Of a stretch of DNA of 64,000 bases, positions 41,774 through 50,507 are shown piece by piece. The translations under genes and the position numbers were made by a program. Numbering within the stretch: the stretch's first letter is position 1; every line of letters begins with the position of its first letter. Where the stretch lies: the NCBI GenBank assembly GCA_016208305.1, contig JACQYI010000006.1:124001-188000 (forward strand), written 5' to 3'. Source of the stretch: Oscillatoriophycideae cyanobacterium NC_groundwater_1537_Pr4_S-0.65um_50_18. GTDB lineage: Bacteria > Cyanobacteriota > Cyanobacteriia > Elainellales > Elainellaceae. Under the pieces are notes generated by a model, which saw nothing but the letters and a program-made list of their open reading frames with translations, did not search any database and was not told the DNA's origin.

Positions 41774-43054
41774 ATGTTCGATGAATCCGATCGCTCTACC
41801 CTGCCCTCTGCCTCGCTCTCTACTGCTTTAGCCCACCTCAAGCTAGGTGACTTCCAGCGGCGCTGGGACATAGCTAAAACCATCCCTGATTTTGGCGAAG
41901 CGGCGATCGCCCCCCTCGTGAGCCTTTTGCAAGCGGAAGCCGAAGAAGACTGGGAGCTAACCTGGTTCATTGCGCGCATCTTGGGCAGCCTCAAACATCC
42001 TGAAGCTATGGCAGCCTTGGTTGACCTCATTCGCACAACTGCCAGCGAAGACGTGGCAACCACAGCAACCGCTGCACTGACACAAATGGGGACTGAAGCG
42101 ATCGCCCCTTTGCAAACTTTGCTCAGCCAACCCTCAACCTACTGCTTAGGGGTGCAAGCTCTGGCTCAGATTCGCCATCCTGATGTGGTGCCGTCGCTGC
42201 TAGAAGCCATGCAGCACGAGTCAGTGGCTTTGCGGGTGGCAGCGATCGATGCCCTCAGCCATTTTCAACATCCTCAAATTTCGGCGGCTTTGCTCAAAGC
42301 GCTGCATGACTCTGCTGCCAAGGTGCGTCAGTCAGCTGTAACGACGCTAGGACTGCAAGCTGCCCTTTATGAAAACCCTCAGGAGCTAGCCGATCGGCTC
42401 AAGCCCTTGCTCTGGGATGTGAACTTAGAAGTCTGTCAGCAGAGTGCGGTCGCTCTAGGGCGCATTGGCACTGAGTCTGCTGTAGTCGCATTGTTTGAGG
42501 TACTGCGATCGCCCCATGCCCTGCCCCTGCAAATAGAAGCCGTTCGGGCATTAGGCTGGATTGGCACCCCAGATGCCTTAGATCGTCTCCAAGAATTTTT
42601 AAATTTGCAGCGTGATTTACTCTGCCAAGAGAGCTGCCAAGAGAGCCTTACCGTCTTGGGTCGGGTAGAGTCTGCTGAGGCCAAGAGACAAGCGACCCAA
42701 ATCCTTTTAAACCTGCTGCAATCTGCCCATGCAATTGCCCAAACCGATCGAGGCAAGCAGGCGATCGCGCTGAGCTTAGGGCAGCTCAAACAGCCCCAGG
42801 CTCTAGAGGCTCTGATTCAGCTTTTGGCAGACGCTAGCGCTAGCGTCAGACTCCATGCGATCGCGGCTCTCAAGCAGCTAGACACTTTGGGCGTTCTGCA
42901 CCTCGATCATCAGCTTTTTCGACCCATCAAACCACTTGAGCCGCAAACGACCCAGGAAATCCTACGGGCGATTGCGGCTCAAAAAAACTTAGATGCAGAT
43001 TTACAAAGAGGTGTGGCGATCGCTCTACAGGAATGGGGCAACTCAGCGGATTGA
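41774..43054 (+). CDS. HEAT-repeat protein
   Basis: The product is built of tandem PBS-lyase/HEAT-type helical hairpins from about residue 20 to 425. Examples are MAALVDLIRTTASEDV..TAALTQMG, VVPSLLEAMQHESVALRVAA and ALEALIQLLADASASVRLHA. Such alpha-solenoids bind other proteins; some cyanobacterial relatives are phycobilin lyases, but no lyase-specific feature is clear. I use the ATG at 41774 (426 aa); a GTG at 41756 is the alternative. It is divergent from the nirA operon, which is the only contextual clue. Confidence 0.85.
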   Translation: MFDESDRSTLPSASLSTALAHLKLGDFQRRWDIAKTIPDFGEAAIAPLVSLLQAEAEEDWELTWFIARILGSLKHPEAMAALVDLIRTTASEDVATTATAALTQMGTEAIAPLQTLLSQPSTYCLGVQALAQIRHPDVVPSLLEAMQHESVALRVAAIDALSHFQHPQISAALLKALHDSAAKVRQSAVTTLGLQAALYENPQELADRLKPLLWDVNLEVCQQSAVALGRIGTESAVVALFEVLRSPHALPLQIEAVRALGWIGTPDALDRLQEFLNLQRDLLCQESCQESLTVLGRVESAEAKRQATQILLNLLQSAHAIAQTDRGKQAIALSLGQLKQPQALEALIQLLADASASVRLHAIAALKQLDTLGVLHLDHQLFRPIKPLEPQTTQEILRAIAAQKNLDADLQRGVAIALQEWGNSAD

Positions 43055-43092
43055 GCGCTAGCGACTCAAAAGTATAGAGGCAAGAGATTGGG

Positions 43093-43701
43093 CTAGGCTG
43101 AGCCTTTGGCTCGCAGTCCATCCGCCATCTCATCCGATTCATTCGAGCTGGCAGCAAGCCGCTCTTTCTCTAAACGGCGCTTGCGAGCATAGAGCTGAAT
43201 GATCGCTGCCATAGCCACGATCATGCCAAACACACTCCAAGATGCGGCAGAGGTTGGGAAGCTGTTCTTGAACACTGCCAACATCACAATAATGACAAAT
43301 AGCACCGTTGGGAATTCATTGAACCAGCGAAACTGCTGCCCGGTAAACCGAAACTGACCTGCCGCCATTTCTTTCATCAACCGAGCGCAAAAGTGATGAT
43401 ACCCCAGCAAAACCACTACCAGCCCCAGCTTAATGTGCAGCCAGGGTTCTTTCAAAAGGTCGGGAGCCACAATCACCATCGCGATCGCCATCGCTACGGT
43501 TAGCACCATCGCAGGCGTCATGATAATGCGGTAGAGGCGCTTTTCCATGATTTGATACTGCTGCTGGAGTACAGTGCGAACTGCCTCTGGCTGCTCGTTT
43601 GCCTCTGCATGGTAAACAAACAGCCGGGGCAGATAAAACAGTCCTGCAAACCAGGCAACCACACCCACAAGATGAAATGCTTTGAACCAGAGGTATGTCA
43701 T
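43093..43701 (-). CDS. hemJ: Protoporphyrinogen oxidase HemJ
   Basis: HemJ oxidises protoporphyrinogen IX to protoporphyrin IX for heme and chlorophyll synthesis and is the form used by most cyanobacteria. The 202-aa membrane protein has four to five helices, the conserved N-terminal histidine H10 in FKAFHLVGVVAWFAGLFYLP (the expected heme ligand) and WLHIKLGLV with the second conserved block. The C-terminus is a charged extension (ARKRRLEKERLAASSNESDE). Confident call. Confidence 0.93.
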   Translation of the reverse strand: MTYLWFKAFHLVGVVAWFAGLFYLPRLFVYHAEANEQPEAVRTVLQQQYQIMEKRLYRIIMTPAMVLTVAMAIAMVIVAPDLLKEPWLHIKLGLVVVLLGYHHFCARLMKEMAAGQFRFTGQQFRWFNEFPTVLFVIIVMLAVFKNSFPTSAASWSVFGMIVAMAAIIQLYARKRRLEKERLAASSNESDEMADGLRAKGSA

Positions 43702-43943
43702 GGATCGAACTCTTGTTAAACGGCTCTCTCATCTGTAGAACGAGAGATCTGAAGTACCGGAAGATCTTAAGCTTTTTCGACCCGTAGCCAGCCAGGAATT
43801 TTACAAGTCGTTAGGAATAGGCGGATCGAATGTCGATCGGGTGCTGTCTTGAATTCCTATTCACTATCTCTTCAGCAGGCGGATTCTAGGGTTGTCTGAG
43901 CGGCGGCTTCTGGAGCGAGGCTTCTGGATCAACGCTTCCGGGC

Positions 43944-44168
43944 TTAGACCGCATGTTTGAACAGCGTGTCTAGATAAACTCTAGCCGCCCGACGGTAGCT
44001 GCGGGAAGCATCTGGCGTATTGCTGCTGCCGTTTTGCAGCAAAAACAGGGAAAGGGCAGCGCAAAAAACGCGATCGTGATCCCAATCAGGATGGGTTTCC
44101 AGGTAGCTCTGGAGCGACTCGTGGAGTTCTTCAGGAATTTCTGCCAGGATGCTGACGGTTGCGTGCAT
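43944..44168 (-). CDS. DUF2811 family small protein
   Basis: This 74-aa protein matches DUF2811, a short cyanobacterial family: MHATVSILAEIPEELHESLQ, SYLETHPDWDHDRVFCAALS, and RRAARVYLDTLF near the end. The start ATG at 44168 has GAGG 8 nt upstream; an in-frame ATG at 44225 would add 19 residues outside the family. The form resembles a ribbon-helix-helix-sized protein but DNA binding is not established. Confidence 0.88.
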   Translation of the reverse strand: MHATVSILAEIPEELHESLQSYLETHPDWDHDRVFCAALSLFLLQNGSSNTPDASRSYRRAARVYLDTLFKHAV

Positions 44169-44837
44169 GAGAACCTCGTATTGGGCGAATGACTGACTAT
44201 AGGGCAAATGGCGATCGAACAGCATGTTCTAAAGCCGTTGTTTATTTTTGGAAAACATAACCCGGTTGAACGGGGCAGCTATGCGATCGCTACAGCAGCA
44301 AAAGCAGCGCTAAATCTAACACCAGCCTTAACCCATCCGTTGGCCCGTGAGGCTTGGGGAAGGGTGACTTAAGTTAGAGCGCTTTCAATATAGTAGGTCG
44401 CATGATTTTGCGCCATTAGGAAGAAGCGTTATGACCGCCACAACTGTAGAAAATCCTGCGGAAGTGTAAAGGGCACCCACGAAAGAATCAGGGTTTGAGG
44501 GCAGTTTTCTTTACAGAACTTAACAAAGGCGGAGGGGTTTAAGCGCTGAGTTCGCCAGAGGCAGGTATTCCCCAATAAGTCTGCAAGCATAGGCTGTACC
44601 GTCATGCCCTGTGGAAAAGTCTGCCCTACCCTGTGGAAAACTTTTAGTCACCTGTGGAAAGCATGTGGAATCCTGCGGAAAACCTCTCTAAGATATAAAT
44701 TTTTGTAAAGTTTTTGAAAATTGTCAGAATCTCTGACATTGAAATTGCAGGTTAGTCCCATAGAAAATGCGCCCGTCCAAATGGATGAATGGGCACTGTA
44801 ATCAGCTTGTAGTCTCGCTTTCGCTAGCTTGGGTTGG
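44169..44837. other. Non-coding stretch with DnaA-box cluster
   Basis: These 669 nt lie between the DUF2811 start and the stop of the GGDEF-EAL gene, both on the minus strand. The left part holds the DUF2811 promoter. A 12-codon frame with a strong SD (AGGAAG) starts at 44430. The right part holds a run of DnaA-like boxes (44610-44682) followed by AT-rich DNA (about 44688-44745). Confidence 0.6.
44610..44682. promoter_or_regulatory. Cluster of five DnaA-box-like motifs
   Basis: TGTGGAAAA occurs at 44610-44618 and 44632-44640. This is the complement of TTTTCCACA, the DnaA box described at cyanobacterial origins. Weaker copies follow at 44653 (TGTGGAAAG), 44664 (TGTGGAATC) and 44674 (TGCGGAAAA). 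All five point the same way with spacings of 10-22 nt. AT-rich DNA follows directly. Confidence 0.6.
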
Positions 44838-47240
44838 CTAAGGACCTTCTGTCATGGCACCGCCAAACGGCTGCTGACGCTCTAATAATTGGGTAATGGC
44901 TCTTACATCCAGAGGCTCTGAAAAGAAGTATCCCTGTCCGAACTCGCACTGCATGGCCAAAAGCTGATCCTGCTGCTCTTGCGTTTCTACTCCTTCTGCC
45001 GTGACGTCAATGCCCAAATTGTGAGCCAATATTAGAATAGTACGAATGATCTCCAGACTGTCAATGCAGCTATCCATTTGGCTGACAAACGATCGATCGA
45101 TTTTCAAAGTATTAATCGGAAAGCGAGGCAGATAGCTGAGGGAAGAATAGCCTGTGCCAAAGTCATCGATCGCGATACTAATCCCTAAGGCTCGCAGCTG
45201 ATAGAGCATATCCACAACGCAAGATGCATTTTCCATCACCATGCTTTCAGTTAGCTCTAGCTTGAGGTTGGCGGGGTTTAGCTTAGTCTCACGTAGCACC
45301 TGCCGAATTTGCTCTGTCAGACCTGGCATGGCGAACTGGCGGCTAGAAAGATTGACGCTGAGCGACAGGAAGCTTTGCTCTGGAAAAGCAGTAAGCCACT
45401 GCTGCATCTGATGGCAAGCCGATCGCAAAATCCACCAGCTCAAAGGAATAATCAATCCGCTTTCCTCTGCTACAGGAATAAACTGAGCAGGCGGCAAGAA
45501 TCCGCGTTCTGGGTGTTTCCAGCGGACTAGCGCCTCAAAGCCAACAATCAGCCCAGTGGTTAAACAGATAATCGGCTGGTAGAAAAGCTGTAGCTCTTGA
45601 GCGACGCCTGCCAGATCGGCCTTTAGCTCTGATGGCAGCTCTGATGGCAGCTCTGAAGCTAGCGATCGAGACTCAGGGAGAGCCTCTTGCCAAGGACTCC
45701 CCTGCCAGGCGCTGGCTGGAGCCGGACTTTTTTGCCAAGTGCTGGCCTGAGCTGAATCATCCTGAAACCAGGGTGGAGACAAATAAGTTGGGGCAAAATG
45801 GGCGGGGGCAATACCCATCATATTGGCTCGTCGTTCCCCTTGGGCGATCGCCCGACGCAGGTCGTTTTCCAACTGAAGTTTTAACAGCATTCGCGTCCGC
45901 ATCGTCTGTTCAAAGACTTGGTACTGGGCTTTGCCCAAGGCTTTAGCCCGATGCATAGCTGTATCAGCATCGCGCAATAGCGGCTCGGTTTGGGTGTAAT
46001 GTGCCGAGCTGAGAACAATACCGATGCTCACTGTAATAAAAACTTCGCGCCCGTCAAGATTAAACGGCAGCGCCAAAAGCTGCTGGAGTCGCTCTGCCAG
46101 GTGAGTCGCCTCGCTAGCGTACTGAACGTGAGACAGCAGGACGGCAAACTCATCGCCCCCCAGCCGAGCCACAGTGTTTTCGGGCTGCAAAAAAGACTTG
46201 AGCCGTTGGGCAGCAGATGCTAAGAGGCGATCGCCCAAAGCATTTCCCAGGCTATTGTTCACCAGTTTGAACTGGTCAATATCTAGCCATAGGACGGCAA
46301 ACGATGTGTTTGAATGCACCTGAGCATCCTCGATCGCCTGCTGCAAGCGATGAATAAAGCCTGCCCGATTGGACAATTCTGTTAAAGCATCGTAGAAGGT
46401 GCTGCGGTGCAGCGCTGCCTCAGCCTCGCGGCGATCGGTGATGTCAGTCTGAAAGCCGACAATACGTTCGAGCTTGCCCCAGCGATTGCGAACCACCAGA
46501 CCTCGGTTGTGCATCCAGCGATAGGTGCCATCGCGATGCAATAGCCGATACTCACATTCTAGGTGCGGCATGATTCCTTGGCGATGTTCGGCTAGGACAA
46601 ACTTGACGGCTTCAACATCAATGGGGTGAATGCGGCTGAGCCATTCGGCGGGGCGATCGCCAATCTCAGTTTCGGCATAGCCCAGCATTTCTTTCCAGCG
46701 CGATGAAAAATCAATGCGATCGGTGCGCAAATCCCAATCCCACAATCCTTCATTGGTGCCGCACAGGGTCAAGGCATAGCGTTTTTCACTCTGACGTAGC
46801 AGCAGATAGGTTCGCACAGACTCTGCCAAGGTGACGGCGCTGCCACATAGTCCAAAGAGCAGCATCGGAGGCGTGACTGGAATAGAATAGCCGCTCGTTT
46901 TTAGCAGCCATCCCAGCCCACCCCAGCCTACACACAAAGACAGCCAAGTCATGAGCTGATAGCGAAATCGCCATTGCGGTAGCCATCCGCCCAAGCCCAG
47001 ACCCAGCAACAGCAGCGCTACCCAAAACCATTCTTGTAGCGCTCGCGGCTGAGACGGGTCAAAGTGCAGTGCCTTCTGCACAAACATTTCTAGGGGCTGG
47101 CAAATGCCCGACTGAAACAGAGTGACGACGATCAGGGTTGCTAGCCCTGCTGGAAGAAACTGCCACCAAAATTTTTCAGTTAGTGGCTTTAGGGTGAACT
47201 GAGAGCGCAATCCCTGCTCTGGGATGGATTGGGTGATCAT
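44838..47240 (-). CDS. Membrane PAS-GGDEF-EAL protein (cyclic di-GMP turnover)
   Basis: The 800-aa product has an N-terminal membrane region with about four hydrophobic segments (residues 27-45, 72-88, 97-115, 122-140), a PAS/PAC domain (about 150-275), a GGDEF domain with intact RLGGDEF (361-365) and an EAL domain with EAL (569-571), ELTES, DDFGTGYSS, KIDRSF and AEGVET. Both catalytic activities look possible. Residues about 471-548 are an S/P/W/E-rich insertion between the first helix of the EAL domain and its first strand (QLFYQPI), partly built from tandem SEL-P repeats. No partner gene is adjacent. Confidence 0.9.
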   Translation of the reverse strand: MITQSIPEQGLRSQFTLKPLTEKFWWQFLPAGLATLIVVTLFQSGICQPLEMFVQKALHFDPSQPRALQEWFWVALLLLGLGLGGWLPQWRFRYQLMTWLSLCVGWGGLGWLLKTSGYSIPVTPPMLLFGLCGSAVTLAESVRTYLLLRQSEKRYALTLCGTNEGLWDWDLRTDRIDFSSRWKEMLGYAETEIGDRPAEWLSRIHPIDVEAVKFVLAEHRQGIMPHLECEYRLLHRDGTYRWMHNRGLVVRNRWGKLERIVGFQTDITDRREAEAALHRSTFYDALTELSNRAGFIHRLQQAIEDAQVHSNTSFAVLWLDIDQFKLVNNSLGNALGDRLLASAAQRLKSFLQPENTVARLGGDEFAVLLSHVQYASEATHLAERLQQLLALPFNLDGREVFITVSIGIVLSSAHYTQTEPLLRDADTAMHRAKALGKAQYQVFEQTMRTRMLLKLQLENDLRRAIAQGERRANMMGIAPAHFAPTYLSPPWFQDDSAQASTWQKSPAPASAWQGSPWQEALPESRSLASELPSELPSELKADLAGVAQELQLFYQPIICLTTGLIVGFEALVRWKHPERGFLPPAQFIPVAEESGLIIPLSWWILRSACHQMQQWLTAFPEQSFLSLSVNLSSRQFAMPGLTEQIRQVLRETKLNPANLKLELTESMVMENASCVVDMLYQLRALGISIAIDDFGTGYSSLSYLPRFPINTLKIDRSFVSQMDSCIDSLEIIRTILILAHNLGIDVTAEGVETQEQQDQLLAMQCEFGQGYFFSEPLDVRAITQLLERQQPFGGAMTEGP

Positions 47241-48656: not shown

Positions 48657-48743
48657 ATCTGAGGCAGCAGTTGCCGCATTTGCAGTATTAAGCAAATATG
48701 GCTCAAGTTTTTTTTCTCAGGCATGTCTCTAAGGAGTAGTTCT

Positions 48744-49421
48744 GTGGTGCGATCGCCGGTCTCCTCAAAAGTTCTCCCCCAGATTTCTCCCAAAATTCTG
48801 GTAGTGTTCAACGGTAAAGGTGGCGTTGGCAAAACAACTACTGCCGTTAATCTGGCGGCAGCCTTTGCCGAAACCGATTCTGTGCTGTTGGTCGATGCCG
48901 ATCCACAGGGTTCGGCCTCTTGGTGGATCGATCGCAGCCCTAAACCTATGGGGTTTGATTTAACCAAATCAACTGATCCGCTGTTGCTGGGTCATCTTCG
49001 GCAAATCACCGACTATCAGCTCATTGTGGTTGACACTCCCCCTGCCCTTAGCTCTAGTGCATTGGCTGCTGTCTTGCCAATGGCCGATTATCTGCTGCTC
49101 CCCAGCCCACCCGCACCTATGGACTTATCGGCTCTAATCGATACCGTTAAGCAAGTGGTTCTGCCTTCAGGCGTTTGCCATCGGGTGCTGCTCACACGAG
49201 TTGATCCGCGCAGCTTGGCAGAGGCTTCAGAAGCCCAAAAGACTTTGCAAGAAGTAGGAGTTCCAGTTTGCCAAACCTTCGTGCGCTCTTACAAAGCCCA
49301 TGAACGCTCTGCTCTAGAAGGCACCTCTATTTTTCAATGGCGTGGCAAAAATAAAACAGAAGCTATGGCAGATTATCGGCGAGTTGTCGAAGAAATCCAA
49401 CAAGACTGGAAGACAATATAA
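48744..49421 (+). CDS. ParA/MinD-family ATPase, possible McdA
   Basis: This is a ParA-type ATPase with the deviant Walker [13 protein letters not shown] (signature lysine present), switch [15 protein letters not shown] and switch [13 protein letters not shown] place the start at the GTG at 48744 because AAGGAG lies 7 nt before it, giving 225 aa. The ATG at 48723 precedes that SD and adds seven residues. No ParB gene follows. Instead a Q/A-rich coiled-coil protein gene begins 186 nt downstream, an arrangement like carboxysome-positioning McdA-McdB pairs. Chromosome or plasmid ParA is less likely without parB/parS. Confidence 0.85.
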
Positions 49422-49607: not shown

Positions 49608-50507
49608 ATGGCGCGGAAACGATTGTCAGACTTATTACGGGAAGAGGCGAAAAAGCCTACGGCAGCATCTCAGGAGGCAGCCGAAACCCTTCCAGAGGCA
49701 GCCCCAGCATCTTCAGATGCGGCTTCAGAAACAGTGGCAACCCCAGAAGCAGCGACAACACCAGAAGCGGCGGCAACCTCAGAAGCGACAACCGCTCCGA
49801 CATCGGCACCCTCGCCCACCGTGACCCCTGAAGCAACGCCAGAGTCTCCCGAAGTTGCCGCTGCTCCTAACCGACGAGGCACTCCCACAAAGGCTGACTT
49901 AGAAGAAACGATCGCCCAACTGCAAGCAACTCTCCTCAGTGACCAGCAAGCGGCGCAGCAGCAGATGCAAGCGCTACAGCAGGAAATTGCCCAACTGCAA
50001 ACCAAGCTGCAAGACCAAGCTCAAGCCCAAGCTAAGATCAGCCAAACGCTGAAGGATGAGGCTCAGGCTGCACCACAGATCCATCAGCTTAAGGCTGAGC
50101 TAGAAGAAGCCAGAACTGTAATTTTGCAGCTATCAGAAGAAAATCAGACGCTCAAGGCTAATAAGGCTAAAGCTCAGACAGCCGCCGCTGCACCGCTCCA
50201 GGCTGCGCCACTTCAGACTGCACCTTCTCCAGCGACGCGTATGCAACCTGCGGCTCAAGCGGCCAAACCTGCGGCGCTTAAGCCCCTGCCTCAGCCCAAA
50301 GCTCCTGAGCCAGGTCTAGAAAGCTACGCGCAAACTCAGCCTGCCTCACGGGGAATTGTGCCTATGCCGGGACGCGATCGCCCCCAGCACGAACGCGCCC
50401 TCCGGAAAATCTTGGAGCACCCGACTCAACCCAGCGGCCTACCCGATATGTCTTCTGAGAAACCGAGCGGTAAGATTGCCGAAGTGGATATTGGCTGGAT
50501 GGATTAG
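49608..50507 (+). CDS. Disordered/coiled-coil protein downstream of ParA, possible McdB-like partner
   Basis: The 299-aa product begins MARKRLSDLLREEAKK. It continues with an A/T/E/P-rich disordered region (about 18-90), a glutamine-rich coiled coil (about 94-185), a second A/P/Q-rich stretch (about 187-245), and a conserved-looking end (ERALRKILEHPTQP and IAEVDIGWMD with a tryptophan third from the end). McdB proteins share disorder, a Q-rich coiled coil and a C-terminal tryptophan, so the pairing with the ParA gene is suggestive. AGGAG lies 12 nt before the ATG. I do not recognise a named family with certainty. Confidence 0.7.
   Translation: MARKRLSDLLREEAKKPTAASQEAAETLPEAAPASSDAASETVATPEAATTPEAAATSEATTAPTSAPSPTVTPEATPESPEVAAAPNRRGTPTKADLEETIAQLQATLLSDQQAAQQQMQALQQEIAQLQTKLQDQAQAQAKISQTLKDEAQAAPQIHQLKAELEEARTVILQLSEENQTLKANKAKAQTAAAAPLQAAPLQTAPSPATRMQPAAQAAKPAALKPLPQPKAPEPGLESYAQTQPASRGIVPMPGRDRPQHERALRKILEHPTQPSGLPDMSSEKPSGKIAEVDIGWMD

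Follow-up and report, generated by a model that had tools for sequence, protein, structure and literature searches.

The window, the whole stretch of DNA analysed here (64,000 nucleotides, C4:124001-188000), belongs to a genome of 6.94 Mb in 85 contigs. A non-coding stretch separates a DUF2811 gene, starting at 44168, from a GGDEF-EAL gene whose 3' end is at 44838. It contains five co-oriented DnaA boxes, two exact, two with one mismatch and one with two, within 73 bp (44610-44682) at box-to-box steps of 22, 21, 11 and 10 bp. All five are on the minus strand. Box 1 (44610-44618), which is conserved in alignments with relatives, and box 2 (44632-44640), 22 bp from it, are exact copies of TTTTCCACA and read TGTGGAAAA on the plus strand. 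Box 3 (44653-44661; CTTTCCACA, plus strand TGTGGAAAG) has one mismatch and lies 21 bp from box 2. Box 4 (44664-44672; GATTCCACA, plus strand TGTGGAATC) has two mismatches and aligns with the position conserved in relatives as ATTCCACAG, and box 5 (44674-44682; TTTTCCGCA, plus strand TGCGGAAAA), with one mismatch, aligns with the relatives' TTTTCCCCA. The 5' side of the boxes is flanked by AT-rich DNA (44686-44735, minus strand; AGATATAAATTTTTG from 44691) with a GC content down to 0.23 over 44690-44749, and this flank carries a degenerate form of the TTTTGTAATTCTTATTATT motif that occurs class-wide. A preliminary description of this DNA had reported two exact and three near boxes of one orientation in non-coding sequence with AT-rich DNA beside them, and the coordinates given here bear out both points.

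The interval between array and gene contains a conserved, inverted and weakly box-like motif on the plus strand (44566-44575; TATTCCCCAA, or TTGGGGAATA on the other strand) and, in the window lineage, two further non-coding motifs on the minus strand. The first (44476-44530; AAG-TATGTAACAAAAAT..CTCAAACCCTGATTCTTTCGT in relatives) is kept across genera and has no match in Rfam, which gave zero matches to structured RNAs across 43000-46000. The second, upstream of the gene (44370-44425; TTGACA..GCGCAAAATGATGCGACC in relatives), is conserved and promoter-like, and we take it as the putative promoter. The same interval has a plus-strand ATG frame of 12 codons (44431-44469; MTATTVENPAEV) with a Shine-Dalgarno-like AGGAAGAAG, possibly a gene remnant. 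The DUF2811 gene itself (PF10929; 43944-44168, minus strand) encodes 74 amino acids counted from a conserved ATG, and is followed in the window lineage by hemJ (TIGR00701 protoporphyrinogen oxidase; 43093-43701, minus strand), the product of which is 89% identical to HemJ of Drouetiella hepatica. About 4 kb from the array are a gene for a ParA-like ATPase (48723-49421) and then an alanine/proline-rich gene with no family match (49608-50507).

The structural model of DUF2811 has three predicted helices (residues 13-25, 31-46 and 52-71) and a mean pLDDT of 71. A fold search against the PDB gave no significant match (best Foldseek E value 2.5), and the best VIA-align hits (Z up to 7.6) were scattered over unrelated chains, which is uninformative for a small helical model. 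On a reading of its sequence the protein resembles the ribbon-helix-helix family; comparison with the Pfam profiles of that family gave zero matches, and no other family was found. No mention of DUF2811 was found in the open-licence papers searched.

The array is not a product of chance. Sixty first-order Markov simulations of the window yielded at best one or two co-oriented boxes per 73 bp, against the four observed at no more than one mismatch. The exact box has 59 matches in the genome and its reversed control 56; the nine-mer is therefore not enriched genome-wide, and the signal is its clustering. Only two clusters of at least three co-oriented boxes were met in 800 kb of sampled sequence, one of them the origin region at dnaN. 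The comparison with random windows given below leads to the same rejection.

Conservation of the array across the class

A scan of the family for two boxes at a step of 20-23 bp found a match in each of 36 genomes; the control gave a single match overall. By neighbourhood these clusters fall into three classes. One is at dnaN (the origin), another at the 3' end of guaA, which faces a TIGR04376 gene, and the third, to which the window belongs, at DUF2811-hemJ; other neighbours vary between genomes. Among 49 named hemJ loci and the window, 38 loci have phased boxes upstream.

DUF2811 is present in 40 of 42 genomes representing one family of the class each; S. elongatus, a model strain, has the gene. 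In a panel of one dnaA-bearing genome per family (41 families), boxes were counted in the 650 bp preceding DUF2811. On the strand of the gene, 32 families have three or more and 38 have two or more, as against 0.1% and 0.3%, respectively, of random 650-bp windows; at least three boxes on the opposite strand are found in none of the 41. The panel genomes of f9, f14 and f31 have no box or one. The array lies about 250-590 bp upstream of DUF2811, on its coding strand, and the spacings between adjacent boxes peak at 11, 21 and 22 bp, that is, at one or two helical turns, which places the boxes on one face of the DNA. Aligned across families, the element reads TTTTGTAATTCTTATTATT, then TTTTCCCCA, ATTCCACAG, TTTCCACAG, AGTTTTCCACAG and GTTTTCCACAGG, then ACGA and TTGGGGATTT. 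In the 5' flank AATTCTTAT is near-invariant throughout the class (~90% conserved); its distance to the boxes is roughly constant, and it is possibly the site of a second protein. One DUF2811-linked array (G025:C6:309048-309225, L095) seems to be partly duplicated in tandem, with ~150 bp between the copies.

The array stays with DUF2811 even where hemJ sits elsewhere and the other neighbours change, which excludes hemJ as the general target. A mobile or recent repeat is likewise excluded, since synteny with DUF2811 is kept from family to family and the flanking genes are shuffled. Judged from these comparisons, the array is ancient, is conserved throughout the class and goes with the DUF2811 gene. 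Its boxes have a conserved place and orientation upstream of that gene, as is expected of a gene regulated by DnaA.

Loss of DUF2811 in genomes without dnaA

A search of 388 genomes of the class with a DnaA model identified 13 near-complete genomes that have no real dnaA, consistent with the free-living and symbiotic cyanobacteria already published as lacking the gene (PMC7198777). Ten of the 13 also lack DUF2811 and one more has it as a pseudogene with two stops. Of 321 near-complete genomes that have dnaA, only two, both multi-contig drafts, are without DUF2811 (Fisher's test gives p 5e-17, or 4e-15 with the pseudogene counted as present, the genomes being treated as independent and phylogeny ignored). 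By taxonomy the number of lineages that have lost dnaA is about six: f36, f42, two within f32, one within f31 and one within f35. Five of them include members in which DUF2811 is missing or damaged. In genus g97 two species have lost both genes and six have kept both. The neighbouring genes are retained: hemJ is kept in 12 of the 13 genomes, the exception (G172) belonging to a family whose members with dnaA also lack hemJ, and guaA is kept in 12.

Some of these cases carry less weight than others. G166 (f32/g99), a single contig of 3.8 Mb, has neither dnaA nor DUF2811 nor a match to guaA, and is a less clean case among the ten losses. The pseudogene (G353) counts for less, as the genome that bears it is small and comparable in size to that of a decaying symbiont. 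Two genomes without dnaA show what becomes of the boxes when DUF2811 stays. In G172 DUF2811 is intact and the boxes upstream are gone, and in G326, of the same genus, dnaA is present and the boxes number four; this points to DnaA, not DUF2811, as what maintains the boxes. In G383 DUF2811 is kept and the array is weakened. Taken together, the loss of DUF2811 along with dnaA suggests a previously unrecognised circuit in the control of DNA replication. In the window genome, where dnaA is at C47:52848, there is a second, weak match to the Bac_DnaA domain in an open frame of 228 amino acids on an 8.6-kb contig (G000:C72:3112-3468, L013).

Proposed DnaA control of DUF2811, and the arrays beside guaA

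On balance we incline to the view that the array is a DnaA-binding control element of DUF2811, distinct from the origin and conserved across the class. It is probably a DnaA-responsive switch for the gene, as suggested by the same-strand boxes (at least two in 38 of 41 families), their phasing, the alignment of AATTCTTAT and the co-loss with dnaA. With its boxes co-oriented and in helical phase, the array would bind DnaA cooperatively along one face of the DNA, and the bound DnaA would adjust transcription from a promoter lying between the array and DUF2811, both of DUF2811 and, in the window lineage, of hemJ downstream. The output of DUF2811 would then track the amount or the ATP state of free DnaA. 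DUF2811, a candidate protein of the DnaA pathway, may be a small regulator or cofactor of initiation that acts back and closes a feedback loop. The full proposal, in which DUF2811 is a DnaA regulator or cofactor specific to cyanobacteria and the array a class-wide switch, forming a circuit unlike Hda/RIDA, YabA or SeqA, is more tentative, and we hold it with slightly more doubt than confidence. Several observations count against a switch of this kind: a distance of 250-590 bp is beyond the usual operator of a promoter, G383 retains DUF2811 and a weakened array although it has no dnaA, the panel genomes of f9, f14 and f31 have at most one box, DUF2811 has no recognisable fold, and an array is also found where there is little for it to regulate.

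This last array, in the window genome (L009:9557-9674, G000:C47), lies 3' of guaA, between the convergent guaA and TIGR04376 genes, and comprises three exact boxes, spaced by 22 and 21 bp, plus inverted boxes. Arrays linked to guaA are found in 7 of 17 representatives of other families that have dnaA and in none of 12 genomes that lack it. No promoter is expected between convergent genes, and arrays of this sort may therefore have an action other than gene regulation, which favours titration or nucleotide switching of DnaA for at least one site. The array at DUF2811 might likewise titrate DnaA or switch its nucleotide and act in trans on initiation, its place beside DUF2811 reflecting a shared pathway or a need for DUF2811 at the site. 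Its intergenic, multi-box, phased layout with a conserved second motif does resemble that of datA and DARS2 with their accessory sites (PMC4585315). Such a function, however, needs neither the fixed same-strand orientation nor the distance of 250-590 bp from DUF2811 seen in nearly every family, and the distance to oriC differs from genome to genome: it is 896 kb in the window genome and 570 kb in G029, and the two arrays of G030 lie at 573 and 976 kb. We consider it unlikely as the whole explanation, though it is the main rival; transcriptional control of DUF2811 and titration or switching may both be true.

It is improbable that the main ligand of the boxes is a protein other than DnaA, be it DUF2811 regulating itself or a light or redox regulator such as RpaB, and that the match to the DnaA box is incidental. 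The flanking AATTCTTAT is as conserved as the boxes, and the HLR1 consensus of RpaB is matched with 0-2 mismatches in the 5' flank of the array in 11 of 39 relatives of the window lineage (e.g. L142, L146 and L150), compared with 0.1% of shuffles. The same boxes nevertheless mark the dnaN region, they are gone from G172 although DUF2811 remains there, and the guaA-linked arrays are missing from all 12 genomes without dnaA. An HLR1 site, confined to part of the window lineage and absent from the class-wide consensus, was rejected as an account of the element.

DnaA-box clusters outside oriC are of a kind already known. In E. coli, datA, DARS1 and DARS2 hold several DnaA boxes in non-coding DNA remote from oriC, and their accessory sites and spacing are conserved; datA and DARS2 require IHF, and DARS2 also Fis (PMC4585315). 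The array is like them in having multiple boxes at a conserved non-coding site away from oriC and a conserved accessory motif, but differs in its uniform co-orientation at 11, 21 and 22 bp, its tie to a gene and its variable distance from oriC. The boxes of the E. coli dnaA and mioC promoters, like those of the array, precede a replication-pathway gene (for DUF2811, a candidate), whereas those of the array lie 250-590 bp upstream and not in or near the promoter. Feedback by DnaA is known for the dnaA gene (PMC4585315).

Clusters in non-coding DNA outside oriC also occur in Bacillus subtilis, where they serve titration and mark DnaA-regulated genes. A ChIP study of the B. subtilis clusters is cited in PMC7198777. 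The likeness lies in the intergenic boxes outside oriC; the array differs as a single element of fixed internal geometry tied to DUF2811 throughout the class, known here from its sequence. In the open-licence papers searched we found no element that is shared by a whole class and linked to a single gene which disappears together with dnaA, and no report of a cyanobacterial DnaA regulon, or of DnaA binding or DUF2811 regulation at the array. The element is thus a predicted target of DnaA outside oriC and DUF2811 a candidate partner of DnaA, and both bear on how initiation is controlled in polyploid cyanobacteria and on why some lineages discarded dnaA (PMC6478999, PMC7198777). If the proposal is true, cyanobacteria have a replication-control circuit of their own, distinct from Hda/RIDA, YabA and SeqA.

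The box cluster at dnaN

The site in the window adjoins neither dnaN, which is on the same contig (C4:1065967), nor dnaA, unlike the origins of most cyanobacteria. The preliminary description had left a choice between an origin and a titration or regulatory site, and had proposed a scan for other box clusters. A separate cluster does exist at C4:1064.7-1064.9 kb, directly upstream of dnaN; there the boxes form inverted groups, after which comes CTACTACTACTA, and a tract of DnaA trios, CTACTACTA, adjoins a box. Trios beside a box are a hallmark of the basal unwinding system and are functional with the DnaA of S. elongatus (PMC8287927). Scored as strict CTA/TAC/ACT repeats 3' of a box (the published pattern, (.A.){3,}, is looser), they are found in the family at 13 of 15 dnaN loci, at none of 12 sites of the window type and at none of 16 guaA-linked sites. 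The origin option is thus unsupported, and the option of a DnaA regulatory site is strongly supported by the conservation of the array.

That the array is a replication origin, secondary or ancestral, is accordingly very improbable and was rejected: its boxes adjoin AT-rich DNA and some cyanobacteria use several origins (PMC7198777), but it is without trios, and its AT-rich DNA flanks the TTTTCCACA boxes at their 5' end where the trio tracts at dnaN loci are 3' of a box. GC skew, sampled along the contig and the complete genome of the relative G029, has no turn at the site but is irregular throughout, as has been reported for most cyanobacteria (PMC7198777), and so neither backs nor rules out an origin. 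Cyanobacterial origins beside dnaN have the box TTTTCCACA (PMC4674748), which they share with the array along with the 21-bp and 11-bp steps; in contrast to the array, they have inverted groups of boxes ~120 bp apart and, at 13 of 15 loci, the trios.
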